The notes below the pieces were generated by a model. It saw only the letters and a list, made by a program, of their open reading frames with translations. It did not search any database and was not told the DNA's origin. Shown here piece after piece: positions 3,282-37,968 of a DNA stretch of 37,968 nucleotides. Each line of letters starts with the position of its first letter. The stretch's first letter is position 1. The stretch is from Eubacterium sp. (GTDB lineage: Bacteria > Bacillota > Clostridia > Lachnospirales > Lachnospiraceae): contig JAGCPW010000008.1 of assembly GCA_017965495.1 (NCBI GenBank), forward strand, positions 1-37,968, given 5' to 3'. The position numbers and the translations under genes were made by a program.

Positions 3282-3662
3282 ATGGCAGACAAAAACAAGA
3301 AAACTAGTGAAGAATTAGTTGAAGCAATGGAGCACTTTATCACTACTAAATCTGTGGTAGGTGAACCTATCCAACTTGGCGATACTATTTTATTGCCTTT
3401 GGCAGATGTGTCATTTGGTATGGGTATCGGAATGTTTTCTAAAGGCGAAAACGGTACTGGTGGTGTAGGCGGAAAGATTACACCTAACGCTGTTTTGGTT
3501 CTTAAGAAGGGTTCATCAAAGATTATCAGCGTAAAAGACTCTGATGGTATTTCTAAGATTATCGATATGGTGCCTGACGTTGTCAACAAATTCGGCGACA
3601 AAGTAGGAGACAAGTTCGGTAAAAAGGAAAAAGATACTGGAGTAGATAATAAGGAAGATTAA
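3282..3662 (+). CDS. gerW: GerW-family sporulation protein (YtfJ)
   Basis: A 126-residue protein matching the GerW/YtfJ family, found in endospore formers and needed in Bacillus subtilis for proper germination. Recognisable features are the VVGEPIQLGDTILLPLADVSFGMG block, a glycine-rich GENGTGGVGGKI turn, and the conserved tail around NAVLVLKK and IIDMVPDVVNKF. The C-terminus is lysine/aspartate-rich. The ATG at 3282 is preceded by an excellent AGGAGG. Its stop overlaps the metF start by one base (TAATG), so metF is probably translationally coupled to it. The gene is good evidence that the organism, or its recent ancestors, can sporulate. Confidence 0.9.
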   Translation: MADKNKKTSEELVEAMEHFITTKSVVGEPIQLGDTILLPLADVSFGMGIGMFSKGENGTGGVGGKITPNAVLVLKKGSSKIISVKDSDGISKIIDMVPDVVNKFGDKVGDKFGKKEKDTGVDNKED

Positions 3663-17651: not shown

Positions 17652-18647
17652 ATGAGCGTAATACAGATTGAAAATCTAGTTAAGAAGTATGGCGCTAATG
17701 TGGCAGTAGATGGACTTAACCTCGATATTGAGGGTGGAAAAGTCTATGGTTTTCTAGGACCGAACGGTGCTGGTAAATCTACTACTATGAATATTATTAC
17801 TGGCTACATAGGTGCAACTAGCGGAACTGTAAAAGTGAACGGTTTCGATATTTTAAAAGAAAGTAAACAGGCAAAGTCATCAGTTGGATATTTGCCAGAA
17901 CAACCACCTCTATACAATGAAATGACAGTAGAGGAATATTTGAAGTTTGTAGCAGAACTAAAGCAGATTCCTAAAAAGGAAAGAGCTGAAGCAATAAATA
18001 CTGCTGTAGAAAAAACTGGTATTAAAGAAGTGTTTGGAAGATTGATTAGAAATCTTTCAAAAGGATATAAGCAAAGAGTAGGAATTGCTCAAGCGATTAT
18101 TGATATGCCAGAGATTATCATTTTGGATGAGCCTACAGTGGGACTTGATCCAAAGCAGATAGTTGAGATTAGAGAGTTGATTAAATCTTTGGGCGAGGAT
18201 CACACAGTAATTTTGAGTTCTCATTTGCTACCAGAGGTTAGTGAAGTGTGCGATTACATTTATGTGATTTCACAAGGAAAGCTAGTAGCTGAAGGTACAG
18301 AAGCTGAATTGTCAAAAGATATTGTAAAAGAAAATATCCTAGAAGTTACAGTTCAGGGTGATAAAGCCATAGTAGAGTCTCTTGTTATAGATATGGCTTC
18401 TGTCACTGACTATGGTTTGAAAGAAGCAGCTGAAGGTATTGTACTTACAGTAAAAACGGATTCGGATTCAGATATTCGTTCAGAACTATTTGCGATTTGT
18501 GCATCAAAAGGACTTCCTATTGTTGGAATGAACTATAAGGAGAGTTCTTTGGAGGATGTATTCTTAGAGATTACTGAGGACTACAAAGCTCCAGAAAAGA
18601 AATCAAAGAAAAAAGAGGAGGTGAGTGAAGATGAAAGCGATTTATAA
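17652..18647 (+). CDS. ABC transporter ATP-binding protein (Gld/Nos-type)
   Basis: A 331-residue ATPase of an ABC-2 export system. It has Walker A GPNGAGKST, signature LSKGYKQRVGIAQA, Walker B IIILDEPTVGLDP and the H-loop ILSSHLLPEV. A C-terminal extension of about 100 residues (EVTVQGDKAIVESL... then a lysine/glutamate tail) follows the nucleotide-binding domain, as in this subfamily. The permease gene overlaps its last 17 bases. The substrate is unknown; the partner genes place it with GldA/GldF/GldG-like systems, known from gliding bacteria but widespread in non-gliding Firmicutes. GGAGGAGAG precedes the ATG. A poor TTGAAT (17601-17606) upstream may mark its promoter. Confidence 0.92.
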   Translation: MSVIQIENLVKKYGANVAVDGLNLDIEGGKVYGFLGPNGAGKSTTMNIITGYIGATSGTVKVNGFDILKESKQAKSSVGYLPEQPPLYNEMTVEEYLKFVAELKQIPKKERAEAINTAVEKTGIKEVFGRLIRNLSKGYKQRVGIAQAIIDMPEIIILDEPTVGLDPKQIVEIRELIKSLGEDHTVILSSHLLPEVSEVCDYIYVISQGKLVAEGTEAELSKDIVKENILEVTVQGDKAIVESLVIDMASVTDYGLKEAAEGIVLTVKTDSDSDIRSELFAICASKGLPIVGMNYKESSLEDVFLEITEDYKAPEKKSKKKEEVSEDESDL

Positions 18648-20868
18648 GAGAGAATTAAAATCATATTTTTCATCAGTAATCGGCTGTATCTTTATTGCAG
18701 CAATGATACTCATTTCCGGAATATTCTTTGTGCTATATAACATGATGCAAGGATATCCAAATATGGAGCCACCAGTGTTCTACGGAGCTATGGGATTGGC
18801 ACTATTTGTACCAGTATTAACAATGAAAGTAATGGCTGATGAGAGACGTCAAAAGACAGATCAATTAATTTTGACTTCTCCAGTTTCACTATTCAAAGTG
18901 GTAATGGGTAAATATTTAGCATTACTTACAATATTTGCTATCCCAGTACTAGTAATGTGCATTTATCCATTGATTCTATCAATATTTGGAACAGTATCAT
19001 TTACACTTGCGTACGTAACAATTCTAGGATTTGTCCTATATGGTGCAGCATTGATAGCAGTAGGTGTATTTATTTCATCTATCACTGAGATGCAAATCAT
19101 TGCAGCTATTATAGGTGTAGTAATAATGTTCTTGGGATTCTTTATGAATACAATCACAGGATTGATTTCTCAAAGTGGAAATATTGCTACAGATATTTTA
19201 GGTGTGTTCGATACTATGACACCGCTCAACAATATTATGGCGGGACAAATTACCTTAAGTAACATTGTTTACTACGTTTCTATTATTGTATTGTTCTTGT
19301 TCCTTACATGTCAGTCAGTTCAAAAGCGCAGATGGAGTGCGTCAAAGAACACAATTGGAACAAGTGTATTTAGTGCAGTTACAATAGCAATTGTTTTAGT
19401 ACTTGTAGTATTTGTAAACTTGCTAGCAAACGTTGTTACAAAGAATGTATCAGCAGCTACTATAGATACAACACAAGAGAAAATATATTCAATTTCAGAT
19501 AAAACAGAAAAGATGCTTAGCAAGTTAGATAAAGATATTGATATTTATGTAATGTCTTCAAAAGGTGCTATGCAGAAAGATGTCTATAAAGACTATATTT
19601 ATAAAACATTGCAAAGATACGAGGCTGCATCAAGCCACATCAATGTTGAATATAAAGACACTAAGCAGAATCCAAACTTCTACAAAGAATATACTGATCA
19701 AAGTCCAACCGAAGGAAGTTTGATTGTACTTAATAAAAAGAATAAGAAATCAAAAGTAATTGATTATCAAGATATGTTTGTTATGGATCAACAAGCAGCT
19801 ATGTATGGACAACAATCTCAACCTACAGCCTTTGACGCAGAAGGACAGATTGATAATGCGTTATCATATGTTCAGTCAGACGAGTTGTATACTGTCTATC
19901 AGGTAGAGGGACACAAAGAAACTGCAGACCCTCAGGCACTTGGAACAATTGAGAACATGACAGACATTATCAAAAAACATAATGGACAGATTAAGACAAT
20001 TAATCTTAATACAAAGAAAGGTCAAGATGAATTAAACACAGAAAAGTGTGCAGTTCTATTAATCTTAGGCCCACAGAAAGACTATACAAAGAATGAGGCT
20101 AATCTTGTAAAGAAATACTTGGAAGAAGGCGGAAAAGTAATTATGGGATTAGAAGCAGCTACATCTTATGGTGAAGATAAAGCTAATTTCTATTCAATTT
20201 TGGAAGCTTATAACATTAAGGTTCAAAAGGGTATAGTGGCTGAAAATGATGAAAACTGCTATATGCCTATGCAGATGGATGGATCAGGCGGACCATTATT
20301 TGCAATTGCAGAAGGAAAAGAAGGATTTGCCGATGGCATCTCCGGACCTGTAGTTTCACCTTATAGCATTGGTTTGACTAAGAAAGACAAGAAGAATGAG
20401 GATATAATTTACTCATCACTTACACCTTCTTCAGATAAAGCAGTGCTTAAGACAGACCCTGACCATGCAAAGAAGAGTACAAAAGAAAAGGGTGATGTGA
20501 GTGGACCATTTGACTTTATAGTCTCTGTTGAGAAAAATGTGGCAGCTACTGAGCCTTCAAGTGTAGGAACAGACAAAGCTAACACTAAGCAAGCAGAAAT
20601 GCTAGTTTACTCATCAGTTTATTCACTTTCTGACAGTATCGATTCAATGTCATCAAATGCTAATACAGAAGTGTTAAGCAACGCCCTAGATAAATATATT
20701 GATACAGATGTGGAAACTGTAACTGTTCCTAAGAAAAGTTTGCAAGTACAGCCACTAACAGTATCTAATATGGCAGTAAGAATCTGCATGATAGTATTTG
20801 TGATTGCTCTTCCAATCTTGATTCTAGGATTTGGAATTATCACATGGGCTGTAAGGAGAAAGAAATAA
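18631..20868 (+). CDS. Fused ABC-2 permease and GldG-like auxiliary protein
   Basis: A 745-residue membrane protein joining two modules. Residues about 1-235 form an ABC-2 permease with six hydrophobic segments (GldF/NosY type; AIYKRELKSYFSSVIG, MKVMADERRQKTDQLIL). After the basic junction VQKRRWSASKN comes another membrane segment (about 245-270) and a large extracytoplasmic GldG-like domain (about 275-705; YQVEGHKE, CAVLLILGPQKDYTKNEANLVKKYLEEGGKVI), then a final membrane segment and RRKK tail. In many systems these are two proteins. The ATG at 18631 lies 9 bases from AGGAGG; the in-frame GTG at 18625 is only 3 bases away and was rejected. It forms a transporter with the upstream ATPase. 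Confidence 0.88.
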   Translation: MKAIYKRELKSYFSSVIGCIFIAAMILISGIFFVLYNMMQGYPNMEPPVFYGAMGLALFVPVLTMKVMADERRQKTDQLILTSPVSLFKVVMGKYLALLTIFAIPVLVMCIYPLILSIFGTVSFTLAYVTILGFVLYGAALIAVGVFISSITEMQIIAAIIGVVIMFLGFFMNTITGLISQSGNIATDILGVFDTMTPLNNIMAGQITLSNIVYYVSIIVLFLFLTCQSVQKRRWSASKNTIGTSVFSAVTIAIVLVLVVFVNLLANVVTKNVSAATIDTTQEKIYSISDKTEKMLSKLDKDIDIYVMSSKGAMQKDVYKDYIYKTLQRYEAASSHINVEYKDTKQNPNFYKEYTDQSPTEGSLIVLNKKNKKSKVIDYQDMFVMDQQAAMYGQQSQPTAFDAEGQIDNALSYVQSDELYTVYQVEGHKETADPQALGTIENMTDIIKKHNGQIKTINLNTKKGQDELNTEKCAVLLILGPQKDYTKNEANLVKKYLEEGGKVIMGLEAATSYGEDKANFYSILEAYNIKVQKGIVAENDENCYMPMQMDGSGGPLFAIAEGKEGFADGISGPVVSPYSIGLTKKDKKNEDIIYSSLTPSSDKAVLKTDPDHAKKSTKEKGDVSGPFDFIVSVEKNVAATEPSSVGTDKANTKQAEMLVYSSVYSLSDSIDSMSSNANTEVLSNALDKYIDTDVETVTVPKKSLQVQPLTVSNMAVRICMIVFVIALPILILGFGIITWAVRRKK

Positions 20869-21452
20869 TGAAGAAGAGTCAAATTATTACACTAGTTGTT
20901 CTCGTGGTAGTTCTTGGAGCTTGTATTGCTGGATACTTTGTTGGCAAGCAATATTTTGCAGATAAAGAGAAGAAGGAAGAAGCAGCTAAGACTACTACAG
21001 CTTTAAAAATAGATACAAGTAAAGTGACAGGTGTAGCTTATTCTTACAATGGTAAAACTTTTACTATTGGGAAGGTTGGCGACATTTGGACTAACGTGGA
21101 TGATTCTAAGATGAAGTTAAATCAAATGGATGTTGGAACAATGATTGGTACACTTAGAAACATTAAAGCGGACACAGTGATTGAAAATCCAAAAGACATT
21201 AGCCAATACGGATTTACCAAGACAAAGAATGGCATTAAGCCAAAAACACAAGAAATATATGTAAAGACTGGAAGCGATAAATATTATGATATATTTGTTG
21301 GATCTCCAAACCCATACAATCAATCGGCATATTATGTAATGATTAAGGGTGATAACAATGTTTACTTGGTAGATGGGGGCTTCACTGCAGAATTTAGCAA
21401 GACACTCAATGAACTTGAGCAGGAGAGTGCCACAGCTGATGTAAATCAATAA
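20868..21452 (+). CDS. DUF4340-like membrane-anchored protein, third gene of the ABC operon
   Basis: A 194-residue protein with an N-terminal membrane anchor (about residues 4-27) and an extracytoplasmic region resembling the start of DUF4340 (TGVAYSYNGKTFTIGKVGDIW, MIGTLRNIKADTVIENPKDISQYGF, YYDIFVGSPNPYNQSAYYVMI). DUF4340 genes regularly sit at the end of Gld-type ABC operons. Many family members are longer with repeated units; this one has a single unit. The ATG at 20868 overlaps the preceding stop by one base and has AAGGAG; the frame extends upstream to 20844 but only inside the preceding gene. It is likely an accessory component of the transporter, with unknown activity. Confidence 0.82.
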   Translation: MKKSQIITLVVLVVVLGACIAGYFVGKQYFADKEKKEEAAKTTTALKIDTSKVTGVAYSYNGKTFTIGKVGDIWTNVDDSKMKLNQMDVGTMIGTLRNIKADTVIENPKDISQYGFTKTKNGIKPKTQEIYVKTGSDKYYDIFVGSPNPYNQSAYYVMIKGDNNVYLVDGGFTAEFSKTLNELEQESATADVNQ

Positions 21453-29443: not shown

Positions 29444-30202
29444 ATGAAACCAGTAGAAAATTATAAACCAAGATTTCACCATTTCGTATGGTTGTTTATT
29501 GTAGGATGCGTTTTGGGCGTGGTAGTGGAAGGATTCTTTTCGTTATTTGACTTAGGAGCATGGGAAAGCCACGTAACATTTTTATGGGGCCATCTAAACA
29601 TCGTTTATGGAGCAGGTGCATGTCTTACATATGTAGTTGCAAACTCTTTAAGAAAAAGCAATATTTTCATAGAGTTTGTTGTATTTATGATTCTAGCATC
29701 TGTTGTTGAGTGGATAGCAGGCTACATAGAAGAAGTAGTTTTGAATTCCACATCTTGGAATTATGGTGCTCTCGGATATCTAACCATTGCTAAATACATT
29801 AGTATTCCATTCAGTATTGCTTGGGGTATTTTAGGAGTATTGTTTATTAAATTTGTACTTCCTTTGCTTCAGAGACTCTTTATGAAAATGAATGGAAAAG
29901 GCTGGGTGATTGTAGCTTGGATTATTACAGCGTTTATGATAGTAAACTTTGTACTAAGTATGTATTCATTCTACAGATGGGGTGACAGAGAAACTTGCTA
30001 TACAGAGAAACAGTTCAAGGAATATGTAATTAAAAATCCTAATGACGTGAAAGGTTTTAGAAAGGTGAATGTACCACACAGAAAACCTGTATATGTTAAA
30101 GATAAAAAACCGACTAATGATATCGATAAATTCTTTGACAAAACGTGGGATGATGAGTTTATGCATAACAGATATATGGAATGGGTAATTAATTCTAAAT
30201 AA
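29444..30202 (+). CDS. Putative ABC-transporter type IV (CmpB-like) membrane protein
   Basis: A 252-residue membrane protein with about five hydrophobic segments (about residues 11-33, 45-67, 75-97, 112-140 and 155-178) and a hydrophilic C-terminal tail of about 65 residues. FVWLFIVGCVLGVVVEGFF, WGHLNIVYGAGACL and VVEWIAGYIEEVV match the PF06541 family (CmpB, putative ABC-transporter type IV), common in Firmicutes with no proven function. No ATPase gene is adjacent. The ATG at 29444 has GGAGGA and lies just after the pyrI terminator, so it may depend on read-through. The long charged tail after the last segment is more than many family members carry, as far as I recall. Confidence 0.8.
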   Translation: MKPVENYKPRFHHFVWLFIVGCVLGVVVEGFFSLFDLGAWESHVTFLWGHLNIVYGAGACLTYVVANSLRKSNIFIEFVVFMILASVVEWIAGYIEEVVLNSTSWNYGALGYLTIAKYISIPFSIAWGILGVLFIKFVLPLLQRLFMKMNGKGWVIVAWIITAFMIVNFVLSMYSFYRWGDRETCYTEKQFKEYVIKNPNDVKGFRKVNVPHRKPVYVKDKKPTNDIDKFFDKTWDDEFMHNRYMEWVINSK

Positions 30203-30204
30203 AG

Positions 30205-30234
30205 AAAAAGCAGTATCGATTGATACTGCTTTTT
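30205..30234. terminator. Bidirectional terminator between convergent genes
   Basis: A perfect 13-bp stem, AAAAAGCAGTATC (30205-30217) with GATACTGCTTTTT (30222-30234) and loop GATT, serves both the plus-strand CmpB-like gene and the minus-strand CorC-type gene. Confidence 0.93.
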
Positions 30235-30236
30235 AA

Positions 30237-31517
30237 TTACTCATTTTCTTCAGTTTCTTTTTTCTTCGGTATGACATCGACCGCCACAGACTCAACTCTG
30301 TTTGAATCCATATCGATAACAGTTAATTTACAATTATCTATCTTAACTACATCACCTGTTTTTGGGATTCGCTCAAGCTGTTCGATAATCAAACCGCCTA
30401 CTGATTCATAGTGGTCTGAATCTATATCAGTTCCTAGTTCTTCGTTGAAGTCATCAAGGTTAACCGAACCATCTACTTTATATCTGTGTTCGCCCACCTT
30501 TTGAATACCTTCTTCTTCGGCGGCATCAAATTCATCTCTCATATCGCCCACTATCTCTTCTAAGATATCCTCAAGAGTAATCATACCGTCCACCTGACCG
30601 TATTCATCTAGGACGATACACATTCCTGATTCATCCTCTTTCATCTCGAATAGAAGATCATTAATCTCCTTAGTAGCGATAGTGTAGAATGGATCACGCA
30701 TCATTTCTGATATGTCAAATTCTTCACCGCTTATATGATTTACAATCAAATCCTTTATATTTACAATTCCGACTATATTATCAGAACTATCTTTATATAC
30801 AGGCATACGAGTAAATTTATTTTCTTTAACTATATCCAAAAATTCTTCGTATGTGGTGTCGATTGAAACCATTACAATATCAACCTTTGGAATCATTATA
30901 TCTTTAGCTTTAGTGTCTCCAAAGTCAAAGACATTGTTGATAATATCAACTTCCTCAGACTCCAAAATACCTTCTTCTTCAGTAACATCCATGATAGTGC
31001 GAAGTTCGCCTTCAGTTATCTTCTTAGAGTTTAGATTAATCTTTACTCTGAAAATCTTTAAGAAAATAGTAGAAATAAAGTTTAAAATGAAGATAACAGG
31101 AGTGAGTACAGTCATTAAAAAATTGATAGGCTTCGCATATCTTAGAGACATACCCTCAGCGTGCATACTTGCAATTGTTTTAGGTATTATTTCTCCATAA
31201 ATGATAATAATAAGAGTTAAAATACCAACACCTACACTTACAGGAATGTTTTTGGTGACATGCTCTGTAAAGATAGTAGCTACCGAAGAAGCAGTGATGT
31301 TAACGATATTGTTACCTATAAGTATAGTTGTTAACATTTTTCTGTTATCTTGTAGGATTTTGCTTAAACGAATAGCTTTTTTATTGCCTTGATCTACTAG
31401 CATTCTAACTCTCATATGATTAACAGTAGTAAGAGCTGTTTCTGCTGATGAGAAAAAGGCTGATAATAGTAATAAAATAAATAAAATACATAGCATCGCT
31501 ATGTTAATCGGGTCCAT
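30237..31517 (-). CDS. CNNM/CorC-type membrane protein with CBS domains
   Basis: A 426-residue protein of the hemolysin C/CorC family. Residues about 1-185 form the DUF21 (CNNM) membrane domain with roughly three to four segments, including SAFFSSAETALTTVNHMR. A CBS pair follows (about 205-325; IMIPKVDIVMVSIDTTYEEF, VGIVNIKDLIV, VLDEYGQVDGMITLEDILEEIVGD). The C-terminal CorC_HlyC domain (about 340-415) includes HRYKVDGSVNLDDFNE. Members are linked to magnesium or cobalt efflux/homeostasis, while the old name hemolysin is misleading. The start has an excellent AGGAGG. It stands alone between two terminator or promoter regions. Ion specificity is inferred. Confidence 0.92.
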   Translation of the reverse strand: MDPINIAMLCILFILLLLSAFFSSAETALTTVNHMRVRMLVDQGNKKAIRLSKILQDNRKMLTTILIGNNIVNITASSVATIFTEHVTKNIPVSVGVGILTLIIIIYGEIIPKTIASMHAEGMSLRYAKPINFLMTVLTPVIFILNFISTIFLKIFRVKINLNSKKITEGELRTIMDVTEEEGILESEEVDIINNVFDFGDTKAKDIMIPKVDIVMVSIDTTYEEFLDIVKENKFTRMPVYKDSSDNIVGIVNIKDLIVNHISGEEFDISEMMRDPFYTIATKEINDLLFEMKEDESGMCIVLDEYGQVDGMITLEDILEEIVGDMRDEFDAAEEEGIQKVGEHRYKVDGSVNLDDFNEELGTDIDSDHYESVGGLIIEQLERIPKTGDVVKIDNCKLTVIDMDSNRVESVAVDVIPKKKETEENE

Positions 31518-31539
31518 ATAGACCTCCTTTTTGTGTAAT

Positions 31540-31545
31540 ATTATA
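31540..31545 (-). promoter_or_regulatory. Possible -10 box for the CNNM/CorC-type gene
   Basis: On the minus strand, TATAAT reads from 31545 to 31540, about 25 bases before the start codon; the -35 is weak. The remaining 31546-31650 holds no gene I can support. Confidence 0.45.
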
Positions 31546-31650
31546 AACCGTCCGATTTATAGAAAAGATTGTACAAAAAGGGGTAATTATTGTCAAGAAA
31601 TGAGCGCCTAAAACACCGATTAAATAACGGAAAAATGGCTTAAAAAGTGT

Positions 31651-31679
31651 TTGGAAAAAAGCCACCTTTGTGATATAAT
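31651..31679 (+). promoter_or_regulatory. Predicted promoter for the SCIFF operon
   Basis: TTGGAA (31651-31656) and consensus TATAAT (31674-31679) are 17 bases apart, with an extended TGA before the -10. The start would be near 31686, giving a leader of about 40 bases. Confidence 0.75.
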
Positions 31680-31724
31680 TTTTTAGGAACTTTTGTTTCA
31701 AAAAAAGCCGTTTTGGAGGGTATT

Positions 31725-31865
31725 ATGAAACATATTAAAACACTTACAGACAAGACATTAAACGATACAGTAAAAAAGGGTGGTTGTGGTGAGTGCCAGA
31801 CATCTTGCCAGTCAGCTTGTAAGACATCTTGCACAGTTGGAAACCAGACTTGCGAACAAAAATAA
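31725..31865 (+). CDS. SCIFF six-cysteine ranthipeptide precursor
   Basis: A 46-residue precursor starting MKHIKTLTDKTLNDTVKK and ending in a cysteine-rich core with six cysteines at 21, 24, 28, 32, 36 and 43. This is the SCIFF pattern (six cysteines in about forty-five residues), nearly universal in Clostridia and always beside a dedicated radical SAM maturase, which is found 95 bases downstream. The N-terminal half is the likely leader recognised by the maturase. Known SCIFF products carry cysteine thioether bridges to non-alpha carbons (ranthipeptides). Threonine, serine, glutamine and lysine between the cysteines are candidate acceptors. GGAGGG and a good promoter precede it. The product's role is unknown. 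Confidence 0.95.
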   Translation: MKHIKTLTDKTLNDTVKKGGCGECQTSCQSACKTSCTVGNQTCEQK

Positions 31866-31892
31866 TTATAATTAATTGAATAATAAGTATCG

Positions 31893-31923
31893 TATAACAG
31901 AGCCGTCCATCGACTCTGTTATA
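31893..31923 (+). promoter_or_regulatory. Intercistronic hairpin between SCIFF and its maturase
   Basis: A perfect 10-bp stem, TATAACAGAG (31893-31902) with CTCTGTTATA (31914-31923), encloses an 11-base loop. No T run follows, so it is not a typical terminator. It may stabilise the peptide mRNA or cause partial termination or processing, favouring many peptide copies per maturase. Confidence 0.55.
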
Positions 31924-31960
31924 GTGCGTTAATAAGCTTATTATTTTGGAGGATATTACA

Positions 31961-33319
31961 ATGATTCATCAGTATAAAAGCAATGGATTCAATATTGTAA
32001 TGGACGTAGATAGTGGTGCTGTGCATGTAGTGGACGATGTCACTTACGATGTTATTTCATTGTATGAACAAAAGAGCGCTGATGAGATTGTTGAAGCTCT
32101 AAAGGACCAGTATGATGCTGATCAGATTAAGGAATCTCTTGATGAGGTCACAGAACTAAAAGATAACGGTCAACTATTTACAGTAGATAAATATGAACCC
32201 ATCATTGATGATTTTAAACAGTATCATAAACCAGTTGTAAAAGCACTTTGCATTCATATCGCACATGATTGTAACCTTGCTTGTAAATACTGTTTTGCAG
32301 AGGAAGGTGAGTATCACGGCAGACGTGAACTAATGAGTTTTGAGACTGGAAAGAAAGCGCTAGATTTCTTGGTAGAAAATTCTGGCGACAGAGTAAATTT
32401 GGAAGTAGACTTCTTTGGCGGAGAGCCACTTATGAACTGGGATGTTGTTAAACAACTAGTAGAGTATGGTAGATCCATTGAAGAAGAGAACAATAAAAAG
32501 TTTAGATTCACACTTACTACTAACGGAGTTTTGCTAAACGATGAAGTCCAGGATTTCCTAAACAAAGAAATGGGAAATGTAGTAATAAGTCTAGATGGTC
32601 GAAAAGAAGTTAATGATAATATGAGGCCATTTAGAAACGGCAAGGGAAGTTATGATTTAATAGTACCTAAGTTTCAAAAGTTAGCAGAGAGTAGAAACCA
32701 GGAGAGCTATTACATCAGAGGTACATTTACTAGAGAGAACTTAGATTTCTCGGAAGATGTTAAACATTTTGCTGATTTAGGATTCAAACAGATATCCATT
32801 GAGCCAGTGGTAGGACCTGAGGAAGATCCATATTCTATAAGAGAACAGGATTTGCCGCAGATACTAGAGGAATATGACAAACTGGCCAAGGAATATATCA
32901 AACGACACAAAGAGGGAAATGGCTTTACATTCTTTCACTTTATGATAGATCTAAGCGGTGGCCCTTGTGTATATAAAAGACTATCAGGTTGCGGCTCGGG
33001 TACAGAGTATTTGGCGGTTACGCCTTGGGGAGATTTGTATCCATGTCATCAGTTCGTTGGGGATGAAGAATTCTTGATGGGAAATGTAGATGACGGAATC
33101 ACAAGACCTGAAGTGGCACAGAAGTTTGGAGAGTGCAACGTCTACTCCAAAGAAAAGTGCAAAGACTGTTTTGCTAAGTTTTATTGTAGCGGTGGATGTG
33201 CCGCCAATGCTTATAAGCAGAATGGTTCCATAAACACCACATACGACATTGGATGTGAAATGGAAAAGAAGAGAGTTGAATGCTCGATAATGATAAAAGC
33301 AGCGTTAGCTGAAAGCTAG
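31961..33319 (+). CDS. SCIFF radical SAM maturase (thioether-forming, SPASM)
   Basis: A 452-residue radical SAM enzyme that installs thioether links in the SCIFF peptide. The N-terminal region (about 1-95; a PqqD-like peptide-binding RRE) includes the MDVDSGAVHVVDDVTYDVISLY segment. The radical SAM motif is CNLACKYC (Cys104, Cys108, Cys111), followed by FFGGEPLMNW and LTTNG. The SPASM region has GCGSGTEYLAVTPWGDLYPCHQF and a CKDCFAKFYCSGGCAANAY block for auxiliary iron-sulfur clusters. The frame opens upstream at TTG 31946, but ATG 31961 lies 8 bases from GGAGG (31948-31952) and is preferred. It is followed 17 bases later by secDF. Confidence 0.96.
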   Translation: MIHQYKSNGFNIVMDVDSGAVHVVDDVTYDVISLYEQKSADEIVEALKDQYDADQIKESLDEVTELKDNGQLFTVDKYEPIIDDFKQYHKPVVKALCIHIAHDCNLACKYCFAEEGEYHGRRELMSFETGKKALDFLVENSGDRVNLEVDFFGGEPLMNWDVVKQLVEYGRSIEEENNKKFRFTLTTNGVLLNDEVQDFLNKEMGNVVISLDGRKEVNDNMRPFRNGKGSYDLIVPKFQKLAESRNQESYYIRGTFTRENLDFSEDVKHFADLGFKQISIEPVVGPEEDPYSIREQDLPQILEEYDKLAKEYIKRHKEGNGFTFFHFMIDLSGGPCVYKRLSGCGSGTEYLAVTPWGDLYPCHQFVGDEEFLMGNVDDGITRPEVAQKFGECNVYSKEKCKDCFAKFYCSGGCAANAYKQNGSINTTYDIGCEMEKKRVECSIMIKAALAES

Positions 33320-33336
33320 CAAGAAAGAGGTTAAAC

Positions 33337-35598
33337 ATGAAATTCAAAATGACTAGACCAAAGGCAATAATCGCATTTGTGTTATCAATTGCTATGATAG
33401 CATTTGCTGCGTATGTATTAGTTTTTGGTGTGGCTGGATATGGCCAAGCAAAGTCTATTAAACTTGGACTAGACTTAAAGGGTGGTGTAAGTATCACTTA
33501 CCAAGTTTCCAAGGATAATGGCAAATATTCACAGACTGACTTTGATGATACTATCAACAAGTTGGAGAAGAGAGTACAGGTATTCAGTACTGAAGCTCAG
33601 GTTCAAAAAGAGGGTGACGATAAAATCGCAGTTTCTATTCCTGGACAGTATGATGCTGACAAGGTGCTTGAAGAATTAGGTAAACCTGGTTCTTTGTACT
33701 TCTGTACTAAGGAAGAGAGTACTCCATCTAAGAAAGACATCAAGGCTAAGAAGTATATTCAGCTTAAGAATAATTCACAAGACGATGGATATTATAAAGT
33801 TTGGGTAACTGGTGATGAAGTTAAGAACGCCAAAGGCCAAGCATCTCAGGATGAAAACACAAAGGCCACTCAGTACGTAGTTTCACTTAAGTTTGATGAC
33901 AAAGGTACTAAAGCTTTTGGTGATATGACATCTCAGAATGTTGGTAACCAGACTTATATCATTTACGATAACCAAATCTTGAGTGCACCAAACGTTAAAG
34001 AGGCTATCACAGGTGGTGAAGCTCAAATCGATGGTCAAAAAGACTTAGAAGAAGCAGAGCAGTTAGCATCTAATATCCGTATCGGTTCACTTACACTTTC
34101 TCTAGACGAGATTAGCCATAAGGTTGAAAGTGCTCAGTTGGGTAACGATGCATTGCAGAAGAGTTTGATTGCCGGTCTTATCGGTATGATCATTATCTTA
34201 ATCTTCATGCTCTTCGTATATAGAATCCCTGGTATTGCTGCAGGATTAGCTCTAGTTGCATATGTAGAAATGATCTTGCTTGCTCTAAACGGATTTGACT
34301 TAACATTAACACTTCCAGGTATCGCCGGTATCATTTTGAATATTGGTATGGCCGTGGATGCGAACGTTATTATATATGCTCGTATCAGAGAAGAAATTGC
34401 TAATGGTAAAACAGTACATACAGCCATCAAGACAGGTTTCAAGGCTGCTACATCAGCCATTGTCGATGGTAACATTACAACACTTATCGCAGCATTAGTT
34501 CTTCTTTGGAGAGGTTCAGGAACTGTTCAAGGTTTCGCGCAGACTTTGGCAATTGGTATCATTATCCAGTTGTTCGAGGCCCTAGTTATTTCTAGAGGAT
34601 TTGTATGGATGTTATTCCACATGGGATTCCAAGACATCAAGTTCTACGGAAAAGAGAAAGCTAGAAAAGTATTCCAGTTTGTTCAGAAGAAAGCTATTTT
34701 CTTCGCCATTTCAATAGCAGCTATTCTTGTAGGTGTAATTGCAATGGTTGCAAACGGAGTTGGCGGTTCAGTATTTAACCTTGGTATCGAGTTCAAAGGT
34801 GGTAGTTCAGTAAAAGTTGAGTTTGCTAAAGAATACTCAATCGATTACTTCAACGATCACATCAAGAAAGACTTAGAAAAAGAAGTTGGACTAAAAGAGG
34901 TTCAAGGACAGAGAGATACAGACAAACCTAAGATTTATACAATCAAAACTGAGAGACTTGAAGGAAAGAAATTTGATAAATTCCAGAAGCTCTTAATAGA
35001 TAAATACAAAGCATACGATACTAAAGACAAGAAGCATCAAGAAAACTTCTCAAATGAGATGATTTCAGGAACAGTAAGTAAACAGATGAGAGAAGACGCG
35101 GTACTTGCTACAGCTATAGCGCTAATATGTATGTTGATTTACATTTGGATAAGATTTAGAAATGTACAATTTGCCCTAGCTGCGGTTACAGCGTTGTTCC
35201 ACGATGTGGCTATAGTAGTTGGCTTCTACGCACTAGCTAGAGTTACACTTGGTACTACATTTATCGCCTGTCTATTGACGATAGTAGGTTACTCAATCAA
35301 CGCCACGATTGTCATATTCGACCGTATCCGTGAGAATATGGGCAACCGCAGAAGAGGTGATAAAGTAATTGATATTGTAAATACATCTATCACACAAACA
35401 CTTACAAGAAGTATTTACACAACATTTACAACATTTATCATGGTATTCATGATTTACATTATGGGTGTTACATCAATTCAGGAATTCACATTACCACTTA
35501 TGGTTGGCTTGATTGCAGGTGCATTCTCATCAGTATTTATCACAGGTTCATTGTGGTACATTTTTAAGGGTAGATCTTACGATAAAGCCTTAAGATAA
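33337..35598 (+). CDS. secDF: Fused protein translocase subunit SecDF
   Basis: A 753-residue fusion of SecD and SecF, proton-motive accessory subunits that pull exported proteins through SecYEG. The SecD half has one N-terminal segment, DLKGGVSITYQV, a large periplasm-side domain and the TM4 motif GIAGIILNIGMAVDANVIIYARIREE with the proton-path Asp. The SecF half (from about residue 450) has LGIEFKGGSSVKVEF and GYSINATIVIFDRIRENMGN. About twelve membrane segments are expected. It starts 17 bases after the maturase. SecDF beside SCIFF genes is a common clostridial arrangement, but whether SecDF exports the peptide is not known. A terminator follows. Confidence 0.97.
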   Translation: MKFKMTRPKAIIAFVLSIAMIAFAAYVLVFGVAGYGQAKSIKLGLDLKGGVSITYQVSKDNGKYSQTDFDDTINKLEKRVQVFSTEAQVQKEGDDKIAVSIPGQYDADKVLEELGKPGSLYFCTKEESTPSKKDIKAKKYIQLKNNSQDDGYYKVWVTGDEVKNAKGQASQDENTKATQYVVSLKFDDKGTKAFGDMTSQNVGNQTYIIYDNQILSAPNVKEAITGGEAQIDGQKDLEEAEQLASNIRIGSLTLSLDEISHKVESAQLGNDALQKSLIAGLIGMIIILIFMLFVYRIPGIAAGLALVAYVEMILLALNGFDLTLTLPGIAGIILNIGMAVDANVIIYARIREEIANGKTVHTAIKTGFKAATSAIVDGNITTLIAALVLLWRGSGTVQGFAQTLAIGIIIQLFEALVISRGFVWMLFHMGFQDIKFYGKEKARKVFQFVQKKAIFFAISIAAILVGVIAMVANGVGGSVFNLGIEFKGGSSVKVEFAKEYSIDYFNDHIKKDLEKEVGLKEVQGQRDTDKPKIYTIKTERLEGKKFDKFQKLLIDKYKAYDTKDKKHQENFSNEMISGTVSKQMREDAVLATAIALICMLIYIWIRFRNVQFALAAVTALFHDVAIVVGFYALARVTLGTTFIACLLTIVGYSINATIVIFDRIRENMGNRRRGDKVIDIVNTSITQTLTRSIYTTFTTFIMVFMIYIMGVTSIQEFTLPLMVGLIAGAFSSVFITGSLWYIFKGRSYDKALR

Positions 35599-35604
35599 TT
35601 ACAA

Positions 35605-35636
35605 GCGGTATCACTAAACAAGTGGTACCGCTTTTA
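35605..35636 (+). terminator. Intrinsic terminator after secDF
   Basis: GCGGTATCACT (35605-35615) pairs with AGTGGTACCGC (35621-35631; one T-G pair) and is followed by four T, which run straight into the next -10 box. Confidence 0.9.
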
Positions 35637-35640
35637 TAAT
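35635..35640 (+). promoter_or_regulatory. -10 box for recJ inside the terminator tail
   Basis: Consensus TATAAT at 35635-35640; the -35 position (about 35612-35617) is weak and lies in the terminator stem. The start near 35647 gives a leader of about 17 bases before the predicted ATG. Confidence 0.45.
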
Positions 35641-35663
35641 TTTATTGATTAATTGTTCAAGTT

Positions 35664-37427
35664 ATGGAAAGAATGACAGAGAAGTGGATTCTCCAAACGA
35701 AGAAAGCTGACTTTGGAGAAATCGCTAAGAAATTTAATATCAATCCCATAGTCGCTAGAGTAATTCGAAATCGAGACGTTGTGGGCGATAAAGAGATAGA
35801 AGAGTATTTAAACACTAATATAGATACGCTTTCATCTCCATGGTTGTTTAAGGATATGGACAAAGCTGTTGATATTCTTAAGATTAAAATCGCAGGCAAA
35901 AACAAGATTCGTATTATTAGTGATTACGATGTGGATGGAATTTGCTCTGGATACATTTTGAACAAAGCACTATCAAACCTTGGAGCAGATGTGGACGTAG
36001 TTGTTCCACACAGAGTGAACGATGGCTACGGCATTAATGAAAGTCTTATTCAAGATGCTAAAGATGCCGGTGTAGATACAATCGTTACGTGCGACAATGG
36101 AATTGCCGCTAAAGATCAAGTGGGCTTCGCCAAAGAACTTGGCATGACAGTTATCGTTACTGACCACCATGAAGTTCCATTTGTAGAGGAAAATGGCAAA
36201 AAGAAATATATTGTTCCTGACGCAGACGCTGTTGTTAACCACAAACAAAGTGACTGTGAATATCCATTTAAAGACTTATGCGGTGCGATGGTAGCATATC
36301 AGTTGATGCGAGCTCTATACGAGAGTATGGACAAAAATCCAAAGGATTTAGAGAGTTTATTGGTCTATGGAGCCATGGCTACTGTCTGCGATGTAGTCCC
36401 TCTAAAGGGCGAAAATAGGACAATAGTTAAAACTGGTTTAGAATTGATAAAAACTACCAAGGATGTTGGTTTTAACGCTTTGGTGGAGGCTTGCAAAATC
36501 AACAAAGAGAGCATTGGCTCTTACCATTTTGGTTTTATATTAGGACCTTGTCTTAACGCATCAGGAAGACTTGATACAGCAAAGAGAGCTGTTGATTTGC
36601 TAAACGAGACTGACAAAGAAAAAGCTTTGGCGGACGCTAGAAAACTAAAAGAGCTAAACGATGAGCGTAAAGACATTACAGAGCAGGGCGCCAAAGAAGC
36701 AATAGATATGGCAAGAGAAATGAAGGACAATATCCTAGTCTTATACTTGCCAAATTGTCACGAGAGTGTGGCGGGAATAATTGCTGGTAGAGTGAAAGAG
36801 TTTTACAATAAGCCATCAATTGTTCTAACAGATGCAGAGGACTGCGTCAAAGGATCAGGCAGATCTATTGATGAGTATGATATGTTTGAAAACTTGTCAA
36901 AGGTTAAAGATTTGTTCTTGAAATTTGGCGGACACAAAATGGCTGCTGGATTGTCGATAGAAAAAGAAAACATTGATGAGCTTAGAACTAGACTTAATGA
37001 TAATTGTACTTTAACAGAAGAAGACTTGATGAAGAAAATTCAAGTAGACTCTGAACTACCATTTAAGTTTGTTACATTTGGCTTGGTAAATGATTTGGCT
37101 AAGCTTGAACCATTTGGCGTAGGAAATAAGAAGCCTATTTTTGCAGGTAAAAAGATCAGTTTAAACAGATTGAGAATCCTCGGCAAAGAAGGCAAAGCCA
37201 TCAGACTTGAGATGACAGATGAGAGTGGTTTCAAGATGCAAGGCATTATGTTTAATAAGTCCAAACGATTTATGAAATTTTTGAGTGATAAGTTTGGACA
37301 GGATGAGATAGATAAGGCTATGGATGGTGCAGAAAATGAAATAAACCTAATGCTTTTGTATTATCCAAATATTAATGAATTTAATGGCAGACAATATCTT
37401 CAGTTAGTTATAGAGAGTTTTTGTTAG
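35664..37427 (+). CDS. recJ: Single-stranded-DNA-specific exonuclease RecJ
   Basis: A 587-residue DHH/DHHA1-family 5'-3' exonuclease, acting on single-stranded DNA in recombination repair and mismatch repair. DHH landmarks: ISDYDVDGICSGYIL, VVPHRVNDGYG, TCDNGIAA, VTDHHEVPF, and ATVCDVVPLKGENR. The DHHA1 motif FGGHKMAAGLSIEKEN lies at about residues 415-430, with the OB-type region behind. The start may be ATG 35664 or ATG 35673; neither has a good Shine-Dalgarno site. apt follows after 9 bases; the recJ-apt pair (often with relA next) is typical of Firmicutes. I see no missing key residue. Confidence 0.95.
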   Translation: MERMTEKWILQTKKADFGEIAKKFNINPIVARVIRNRDVVGDKEIEEYLNTNIDTLSSPWLFKDMDKAVDILKIKIAGKNKIRIISDYDVDGICSGYILNKALSNLGADVDVVVPHRVNDGYGINESLIQDAKDAGVDTIVTCDNGIAAKDQVGFAKELGMTVIVTDHHEVPFVEENGKKKYIVPDADAVVNHKQSDCEYPFKDLCGAMVAYQLMRALYESMDKNPKDLESLLVYGAMATVCDVVPLKGENRTIVKTGLELIKTTKDVGFNALVEACKINKESIGSYHFGFILGPCLNASGRLDTAKRAVDLLNETDKEKALADARKLKELNDERKDITEQGAKEAIDMAREMKDNILVLYLPNCHESVAGIIAGRVKEFYNKPSIVLTDAEDCVKGSGRSIDEYDMFENLSKVKDLFLKFGGHKMAAGLSIEKENIDELRTRLNDNCTLTEEDLMKKIQVDSELPFKFVTFGLVNDLAKLEPFGVGNKKPIFAGKKISLNRLRILGKEGKAIRLEMTDESGFKMQGIMFNKSKRFMKFLSDKFGQDEIDKAMDGAENEINLMLLYYPNINEFNGRQYLQLVIESFC

Positions 37428-37436
37428 GAGGTCACG

Positions 37437-37961
37437 ATGCATCCAATAGATAATTATATTAGAACTATTCCAGATTTTCCTGAAGAAGGAATTATGTTTA
37501 GAGATATCACTACGGTTACACAAGATCCAGATGGTTTTAAACTTGCTGTCGATAGCATGCAAGAATTAATCGAAGATTTGGATTTTGATGTGTTGGTAGG
37601 TGTGGAAGCGAGAGGCTTCATTTTTGGAGCAGCTATTGCTTACAACATGGGCAAGAGTTTGTCTTTGATAAGAAAGAAAGGAAAACTTCCTTTTGAAACT
37701 ATATCTCAAGATTATGATTTGGAATATGGTACAGCCACAGTAGAGATGCATGTGGATGCGATAAAACCAGGTCAGAAAGTCATTATTATTGATGACTTGA
37801 TTGCAACAGGTGGAAGTGCAAAAGCGGCTATCGACATTGTTGAACAATTAGGAGCAGAAGTAGTTGGTAATCTATTCTTAGTAGAACTTAAAGGCTTAAA
37901 TGGAAGAGCAAAACTTGAAGGATACAGAGTAGATTCAGTTATAGCATACGAAGGAAAATAA
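37437..37961 (+). CDS. apt: Adenine phosphoribosyltransferase
   Basis: A 174-residue PRTase that makes AMP from adenine and PRPP in purine salvage. It opens with the usual IPDFPEEGIMFRDIT, contains GVEARGFIFGAAIAY, and carries the PRPP-binding motif VIIIDDLIATGGSAKAA. Length and ends are typical and the stop is seen at 37961, so the gene is complete. AGGAGGT precedes the ATG, 9 bases after recJ. The organism therefore also keeps adenine salvage alongside the PNP encoded earlier. relA is expected downstream in this lineage but lies outside the window. Confidence 0.97.
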   Translation: MHPIDNYIRTIPDFPEEGIMFRDITTVTQDPDGFKLAVDSMQELIEDLDFDVLVGVEARGFIFGAAIAYNMGKSLSLIRKKGKLPFETISQDYDLEYGTATVEMHVDAIKPGQKVIIIDDLIATGGSAKAAIDIVEQLGAEVVGNLFLVELKGLNGRAKLEGYRVDSVIAYEGK

Positions 37962-37968
37962 TTAGAAA

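Follow-up and report, generated by a model that had tools for sequence, protein, structure and literature searches.

The scfA-scfB-secDF cassette of a Lachnospiraceae genome: a canonical SCIFF locus, probably an operon, and limits on the function of its peptide

Introduction

What does a modified peptide do in its cell when it has remained almost unchanged over most of a bacterial class? SCIFF is such a peptide, and a locus for it lies in a stretch of 37,968 nucleotides from Eubacterium sp. (Lachnospiraceae; contig JAGCPW010000008.1 of assembly GCA_017965495.1, forward strand), hereafter called the window. On its + strand, scfA, the gene of the SCIFF precursor, is followed by scfB, that of its radical SAM maturase, and by secDF, which encodes a fused SecD-SecF translocase accessory protein. 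An earlier note, made from the letters of the DNA, had singled out this cassette and proposed that the peptide belongs to core physiology rather than to a typical cluster for ribosomally synthesized and post-translationally modified peptides (RiPPs). Our analysis shows that the window carries an ordinary, canonical SCIFF locus, probably an operon and a member of a known family; the value of the results lies in the limits that they set on SCIFF function and not in this locus itself. With modest confidence, the data point to a role in core physiology, possibly near the Sec translocase, rather than to that of an antibiotic or of a signal for sporulation.

Identity and organization of the cassette

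The product of scfA (31725..31865, with its ATG at 31725) is a peptide of 46 residues with six cysteines at the spacing of the SCIFF family (positions 21, 24, 28, 32, 36 and 43). It scores 86.4 bits against TIGR03973 (cut-off 50) and 88.2 bits against PF13165 (cut-off 27). ScfB is encoded close by, 95 bases downstream, as a radical SAM/SPASM protein of 452 residues with a PqqD-like N-terminus (31961..33319; 802.8 bits against TIGR03974, cut-off 425). Its PF04055 and PF05402 domains exceed their cut-offs (56.0 bits vs 29.5 and 24.6 bits vs 23.4), and its SPASM domain (PF13186) reaches 21.2 bits, slightly below the cut-off of 21.5. Both proteins are the sole ones of their kind in the assembly of 1.66 Mb (92.8% complete), counting every SCIFF match and every ScfB match above cut-off, and the SCIFF model matched none of 14 control genomes. 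After a further 17 bases comes secDF (33337..35598; 753 residues), with TIGR01129 and TIGR00966 over cut-off together with PF02355 and PF22599. The lengths, cysteine positions and intergenic distances given in the earlier note were all correct, and the comparison with the two SCIFF models that it had proposed gave scores far above cut-off.

The closest known system is that of thermocellin, CteA/CteB of Clostridium thermocellum (PDB 5WGG, 5WHY); the chemistry of CteA is described in two reviews (PMC8326336, PMC8172795). CteB (5WGG) aligns with residues 1-447 of ScfB (629.9 bits), which shares with it both the CX3CX2C motif of radical SAM enzymes and the cysteines near the C-terminus. The CteA chain of 21 residues in the CteB structure matches the first 21 residues of the window peptide, its leader (E 0.00073), and ScfB would hold this leader via its PqqD-like domain. 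The window differs from CteA/CteB in that secDF is fused and lies directly behind scfB. Two other maturase groups are more distant. ScfB scores 289.4 bits against NF047865, the model of the related maturase PapB, which with PapA makes freyrasin in Paenibacillus polymyxa, but this is below the PapB cut-off of 340, and the window peptide lacks the Cys-X3-Asp motif. Against NF040492, the model of 'not_ScfB' orphan maturases, it reaches 609.9 bits, under the cut-off of 855, and the window does have a SCIFF gene. The nearest relatives of ScfB, 96-97% identical, are found in gut or rumen metagenome-assembled genomes (MAGs) labelled Eubacterium, Lachnospira or Lachnospiraceae; our close-relative set comprises the best 80 of at least 571 confirmed relatives.

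We propose that scfA, scfB and secDF form one operon of a gut or rumen member of the Lachnospiraceae, probably transcribed from about 31651 to 35640, because scfB and secDF are so closely spaced, because a scan of 31300-37968 for terminator-like sites found none on the + strand from scfA up to where secDF ends, and because in 75 of the 77 close relatives that could be assessed scfB is likewise followed immediately by secDF. The promoter noted earlier corresponds to a consensus match at 31651..31679 (TTGGAA-17-TATAAT, with a TG preceding the -10 element; 10 of 12 positions). Such promoter-like sites number 27 in 31300-37968 vs 20.7 expected by shuffling, and this one is, on its own, weak evidence of a promoter. 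A ribosome-binding-like GGAGG lies at 31715-31719, ahead of scfA. The proposed end of the operon is an intrinsic-terminator-like hairpin at 35603..35640 (+ strand); its 13-pair stem, the longest among six terminator-like sites (2.9 expected), and its T-rich tail were placed at 35603-35633. Taken together, the identity, operon structure and chemistry that we propose for the cassette have in our judgement a probability of about 0.88.

The gap between scfA and scfB contains a further hairpin (31893..31923, + strand), with the stem TATAACAGAG/CTCTGTTATA and no T tail. Ten pairs are possible; when the gap is folded in full, its structure of minimum energy keeps the inner seven and re-pairs the rest; the fold of the gap has a z-score of -2.19, and 6 of 200 shuffled versions were equally stable. 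The stem is kept in close relatives though its flanks vary, and inspection by eye shows other stems at the same place in distant ones. Values below -2 were obtained for 72 of 76 gaps from the family (out of 81; length 30-200 nt), for 94 of 137 gap stretches across the class and for three of 137 coding stretches. They were also obtained for 39% of 218 other same-strand gaps, which counts against a role peculiar to this hairpin. Hairpins are thus common in gaps generally and commoner between scfA and scfB (p 2e-8 for the class, computed from rounded fractions). A classic terminator was considered and rejected, since at least five T occur in the next eight bases after no more than 35 of 99 hairpins from the class and 4 of 61 from the family, counts that are rough because the hairpin picking failed for some near-identical gaps (e.g. 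L237-L239). On the simplest reading, the hairpin would lower or trim the message between the two genes and so yield more scfA than scfB message.

Distribution of the SCIFF-ScfB pair

We surveyed 293 genomes of the class, requested at a completeness of at least 90%. SCIFF matches occur in 250 of them, the window genome included (248 above cut-off), and ScfB exceeds its cut-off in 248. Crossing the lists by hand gave 245 genomes with both, five with SCIFF only, three with ScfB only and 40 with neither, in line with the earlier description of a near-universal clostridial pair. Apparent losses of ScfB in two of the SCIFF-only genomes (G017, G153) were dismissed, as ScfB is present there in pieces, apparently through assembly or frame breaks, and in a third (G277) the SCIFF match falls below cut-off and contains a stop; after these checks G082 and G196 remain.

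The comparative set consists of 161 loci. The first 100 were fetched from about 150 listed matches, one per genus except three, and were biased toward high scores. As a remedy, 80 of the remaining 100 genomes were searched again and 60 loci were added, with most genera already represented and the two sub-cut-off matches set aside; the window completes the set. The scfB gene lies within 1 kb of scfA in 137 of 157 assessable loci, and a 138th (L225) fails only through an overlap of open reading frames. In three genomes of one family (G147, G164 and G244; f54), the genes of SCIFF and ScfB share a contig but are separated by about 60-65 kb.

Conservation of the core and position of the thioether

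The alignment of the 161 peptides (three tandem ones being represented by their first module) was counted without any pattern that fixes residues. Positions 21, 24, 28-31, 33-36, 40 and 43 are invariant, so that Thr34 is found in all 161 loci; Cys32 is found in 160, with Ser in the remaining one (L219). Position 37 is more variable (Thr in 127, Gly in 32, Ser in one and Ala in one). Among 81 Lachnospiraceae loci (the 80 best relatives and the window), which comprise 77 nucleotide versions, the core of 24 residues varies only at position 42; the search pattern fixed part of this core, Thr34 included, and was matched by all 80 relatives. Such constancy disfavours a role as signal or antibiotic. 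A genome-mining study does count SCIFF loci alongside bacteriocins, and SCIFF could accordingly be imagined as an antimicrobial ranthipeptide; the same study (PMC13289728) describes the class as having no well-characterised activity. With a core that is near-identical class-wide and neither an immunity nor an exporter gene inside the three-gene cassette, we regard an antimicrobial function as very improbable.

The same alignment bears on the bond that ScfB would form. Reviews report conflicting results, with a Cys32-Thr37 thioether in vitro vs a Cys32-Thr34 thioether (at the gamma carbon) on co-expression, a discrepancy that 'will need to be clarified' (PMC8326336, PMC8172795). According to these reviews, Tte1186a and Tte1186 of Caldanaerobacter subterraneus are a SCIFF peptide and its maturase, and the bond reported for Tte1186a is Cys32-Thr37. 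The window peptide likewise has Cys32 and both candidate acceptors; the comparison of the 161 loci favours Thr34 as the general acceptor. As Gly occupies position 37 in 32 loci, Thr37 cannot be the general gamma-carbon acceptor, whereas the invariant Thr34 can, and conservation therefore favours Cys32-Thr34, though indirectly and short of proof. The radical SAM and SPASM clusters of ScfB would accordingly link Cys32 to Thr34, with up to five other cysteines remaining. Two points speak against this position. One is the published in vitro placement at Thr37. The other is the Ser found in place of Cys32 in two separate records, each with a Ser at position 37 and ScfB behind (L219:6794-6952, minus strand, and L328:1953-2108), from which it follows that Cys32 is not universally a thioether donor.

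Genomic neighbourhood and the Sec translocase

Clustering of neighbours in the first 101 loci revealed a recurrent order, ruvC-ruvA-ruvB-queA-tgt-yajC-TIGR04086 membrane protein-scfA-scfB-secD-secF-recJ-apt-relA. In this block, yajC and TIGR04086 were named by model and secDF, recJ and apt by similarity to the window genes; ruvC, ruvA, ruvB, queA, tgt and relA are presumed names, assigned by recognition. Upstream of scfA, in 147 assessable loci, yajC lies within 3.5 kb in 76, the TIGR04086 gene within 2.5 kb in 62 and tgt within 4 kb in 62; downstream, in 133 assessable loci, secD/F lies within 4.5 kb in 62 and recJ within 5.2 kb in 44. One or more of yajC, TIGR04086 and secD/F is nearby on the same strand in 85 of the 123 loci assessable on both sides, representing 43 of 57 families. 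A TIGR04086-type gene also lies within 2.5 kb upstream in 44 of 70 close relatives (among the best 80 of at least 571).

We read these observations as favouring a conserved housekeeping role for the SCIFF product inside the cell that makes it, at the Sec translocase or close to it, over a role as antibiotic or as a signal specific to one species. We put this Sec-linked role forward tentatively, and consider it less likely than not. Several observations weigh against it: 38 of the 123 two-sided loci lack any Sec neighbour, two of the 77 assessable close relatives lack secDF behind scfB, and the window itself has neither yajC nor TIGR04086 beside scfA. Moreover, the linkage may only be inherited, as the whole block, from ruvCAB to relA, looks old. 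Bacillus subtilis presumably carries a comparable block that lacks SCIFF; in that case the block predates the scfA-scfB pair, and linkage alone is no proof of function. Among the papers listed in our literature searches, no title or passage dealt with SCIFF together with SecD or SecDF; such a link may still have been published.

The neighbourhood could be uninformative, the scfAB pair having entered a slow-changing block early and been carried along in it, while SCIFF has another task altogether. Its free cysteines, of which there would be up to five after a single thioether, might for instance bind a metal or an Fe-S cluster or provide a redox couple. The block is long and includes the unrelated recJ, apt, relA and ruvAB, and more than a quarter of the two-sided loci, the 38 just mentioned, lie outside it. 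Furthermore, the rate of Sec neighbours is equal with (76 of 110) and without (9 of 13) an adjacent scfB, and hence shows no special pull. One of these 13 loci (L225) really has an overlapping scfB, and the four without a Sec neighbour include it and two lone-SCIFF genomes (L079, L220). In the other direction, the nine loci with Sec neighbours, from seven families, have no scfB on either strand of the stretch, and seven of nine two-sided loci in the window's own family have lost the upstream genes yet keep secDF. We give the uninformative neighbourhood slightly less than an even chance.

As to a metal or redox role, a search of the PDB weakly matched the SCIFF core (31725-31862) to a stretch of epoxyqueuosine reductase that is rich in cysteine (E 0.021 for the whole sequence, 0.13 for the stretch). 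This is near chance level and can be taken as a lead only; queA and tgt are frequent neighbours of SCIFF.

Sporulation and export

The earlier note had called the biological role of SCIFF unresolved, a view to be qualified in one respect: in a knock-out study of 2020 (Chen et al.), as cited in two reviews (PMC8326336, PMC8102284), sporulation genes and agr of C. beijerinckii were reportedly affected. This effect was read as quorum sensing and stands against a Sec-linked housekeeping role. SCIFF would in that case be an extracellular peptide that steers sporulation and similar transitions, with its leader cut off and its export left to general machinery. The same reviews also cite a knock-out in C. 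ljungdahlii, and Gly20, which precedes the first core cysteine and resembles a leader end, is kept in 157 of the 161 loci.

A near-identical core across the class is nevertheless unlike species-specific pheromones. We also crossed the SCIFF list of the 293 genomes with searches for Spo0A (TIGR02875, E<=1e-40) and C39 peptidase (PF03412, E<=1e-5), cut-offs that may miss divergent members in genomes that are not all complete. Spo0A was matched in 224 genomes, 187 of the 250 with SCIFF and 37 of the 43 without it (Fisher p 0.12). The two show no significant association, and the occurrence of SCIFF is thus not coupled to that of Spo0A, a match being absent at this threshold from 63 SCIFF genomes, the window assembly among them. 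C39 peptidase was matched in 51 genomes, 50 of which have SCIFF, and at this threshold no match was found in the other 200 of the 250 SCIFF genomes, again including the window assembly. The double-glycine C39 route is therefore not general, although peptidases of other types are possible. We consider the quorum-sensing explanation rather improbable. The near-invariant core, the frequent Sec block and the rarity of C39 matches all lend support, short of proof, to the core-physiology role suggested earlier. The comparative results predict, besides the Cys32-Thr34 bond, that SCIFF should matter in genomes without Spo0A and without C39 peptidases, and they make the Sec translocase a promising place to look for a partner.

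The absence of a dedicated leader peptidase or ABC exporter near the cassette, also claimed earlier, is borne out for the peptidase by the C39 search, but two ABC-related features are present in the window by Pfam name. A membrane protein at 29441-30199 matches PF06541 ('putative ABC-transporter type IV'); it lies 1.5 kb upstream of scfA, beyond a divergent CNNM/CorC-type gene (30237-31517), with no NCBIfam match and no ATPase gene alongside. At 17652-21449, an ABC ATPase, an ABC-2/ABC_transp_aux fusion and a DUF4340 protein are encoded consecutively, a set that we take to be gliding-type transporter-like. By model, neither is a known RiPP exporter, and either may play a role in export. The window also encodes a Spore_YtfJ-domain protein (3282-3662), although its assembly lacks a Spo0A match.

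Elsewhere around the cassette, secDF is followed by recJ (35664) and apt (37437), and no Rfam model matched 30000-37968.

SCIFF in phage and plasmid records

Using tblastn, SCIFF was detected in ten unverified, unannotated 'Bacteriophage sp.' records (L322-L331: MT835472, MT835702, MT839507, MT837264, MT836984, MT836133, MT838578, MT837846, MT836452 and MT837768, respectively). A match to scfB follows on the same strand in all ten; secDF is also present in four (L322, L323, L325 and L327) and recJ in three; in L328-L331, scfB was the only gene found of those searched for. For one such record, of 91 kb, 16 kb were examined. To judge from their gene content, these records are probably bacterial chromosome within a phage collection. 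The one locus confirmed in IMG/VR (L332:6001-7348) has SCIFF and scfB at one contig end and, by eye, amidase-like and fibre-like reading frames at the other, and is probably the host flank of a prophage. A plasmid search returned one SCIFF record of 2.6 Mb, which is the size of a chromosome. These chromosome-like records, the prophage-edge contig and the oversized 'plasmid' lend no support to the idea that SCIFF is a gene of phages or plasmids.

Lone and tandem SCIFF genes

Among 32 genomes searched from the family of G196, ScfB exceeds its cut-off in none and SCIFF in six, which belong to three of the five genera. The six lone genes (L316-L321, 3.1 kb each) all have an intact core, and their neighbours differ within 3 kb. 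Inspection by eye reveals ribosome-binding-like and terminator-like sequences, and a recombinase-like reading frame near the gene of L316. For some of these genes the GC content at third codon positions of the core exceeds expectation (z 3.3 and 2.4), for others it does not (z -0.2), and the leaders differ as well, which suggests more than one uptake. Other radical SAM matches (E<=1e-20) occur in ten of the 32 genomes, one of which (G316) is a lone-SCIFF genome where another enzyme may modify the peptide. Single cases may be MAG errors.

These genes provide a natural test of the need for the thioether. Since in several families scfA stays at the Sec locus where scfB is elsewhere, and since all six lone genes have a leader and an intact core, SCIFF might even serve the clostridial Sec translocase as a housekeeping peptide and be active in a way that is not wholly maturase-dependent, a combination that we consider doubtful and decidedly unlikely.

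Finally, three genomes from three families carry tandem SCIFF genes, in which a single reading frame holds two complete leader-core modules (L176:8903-9172, L203:6825-7091 and, on the minus strand, L234:8906-9169).

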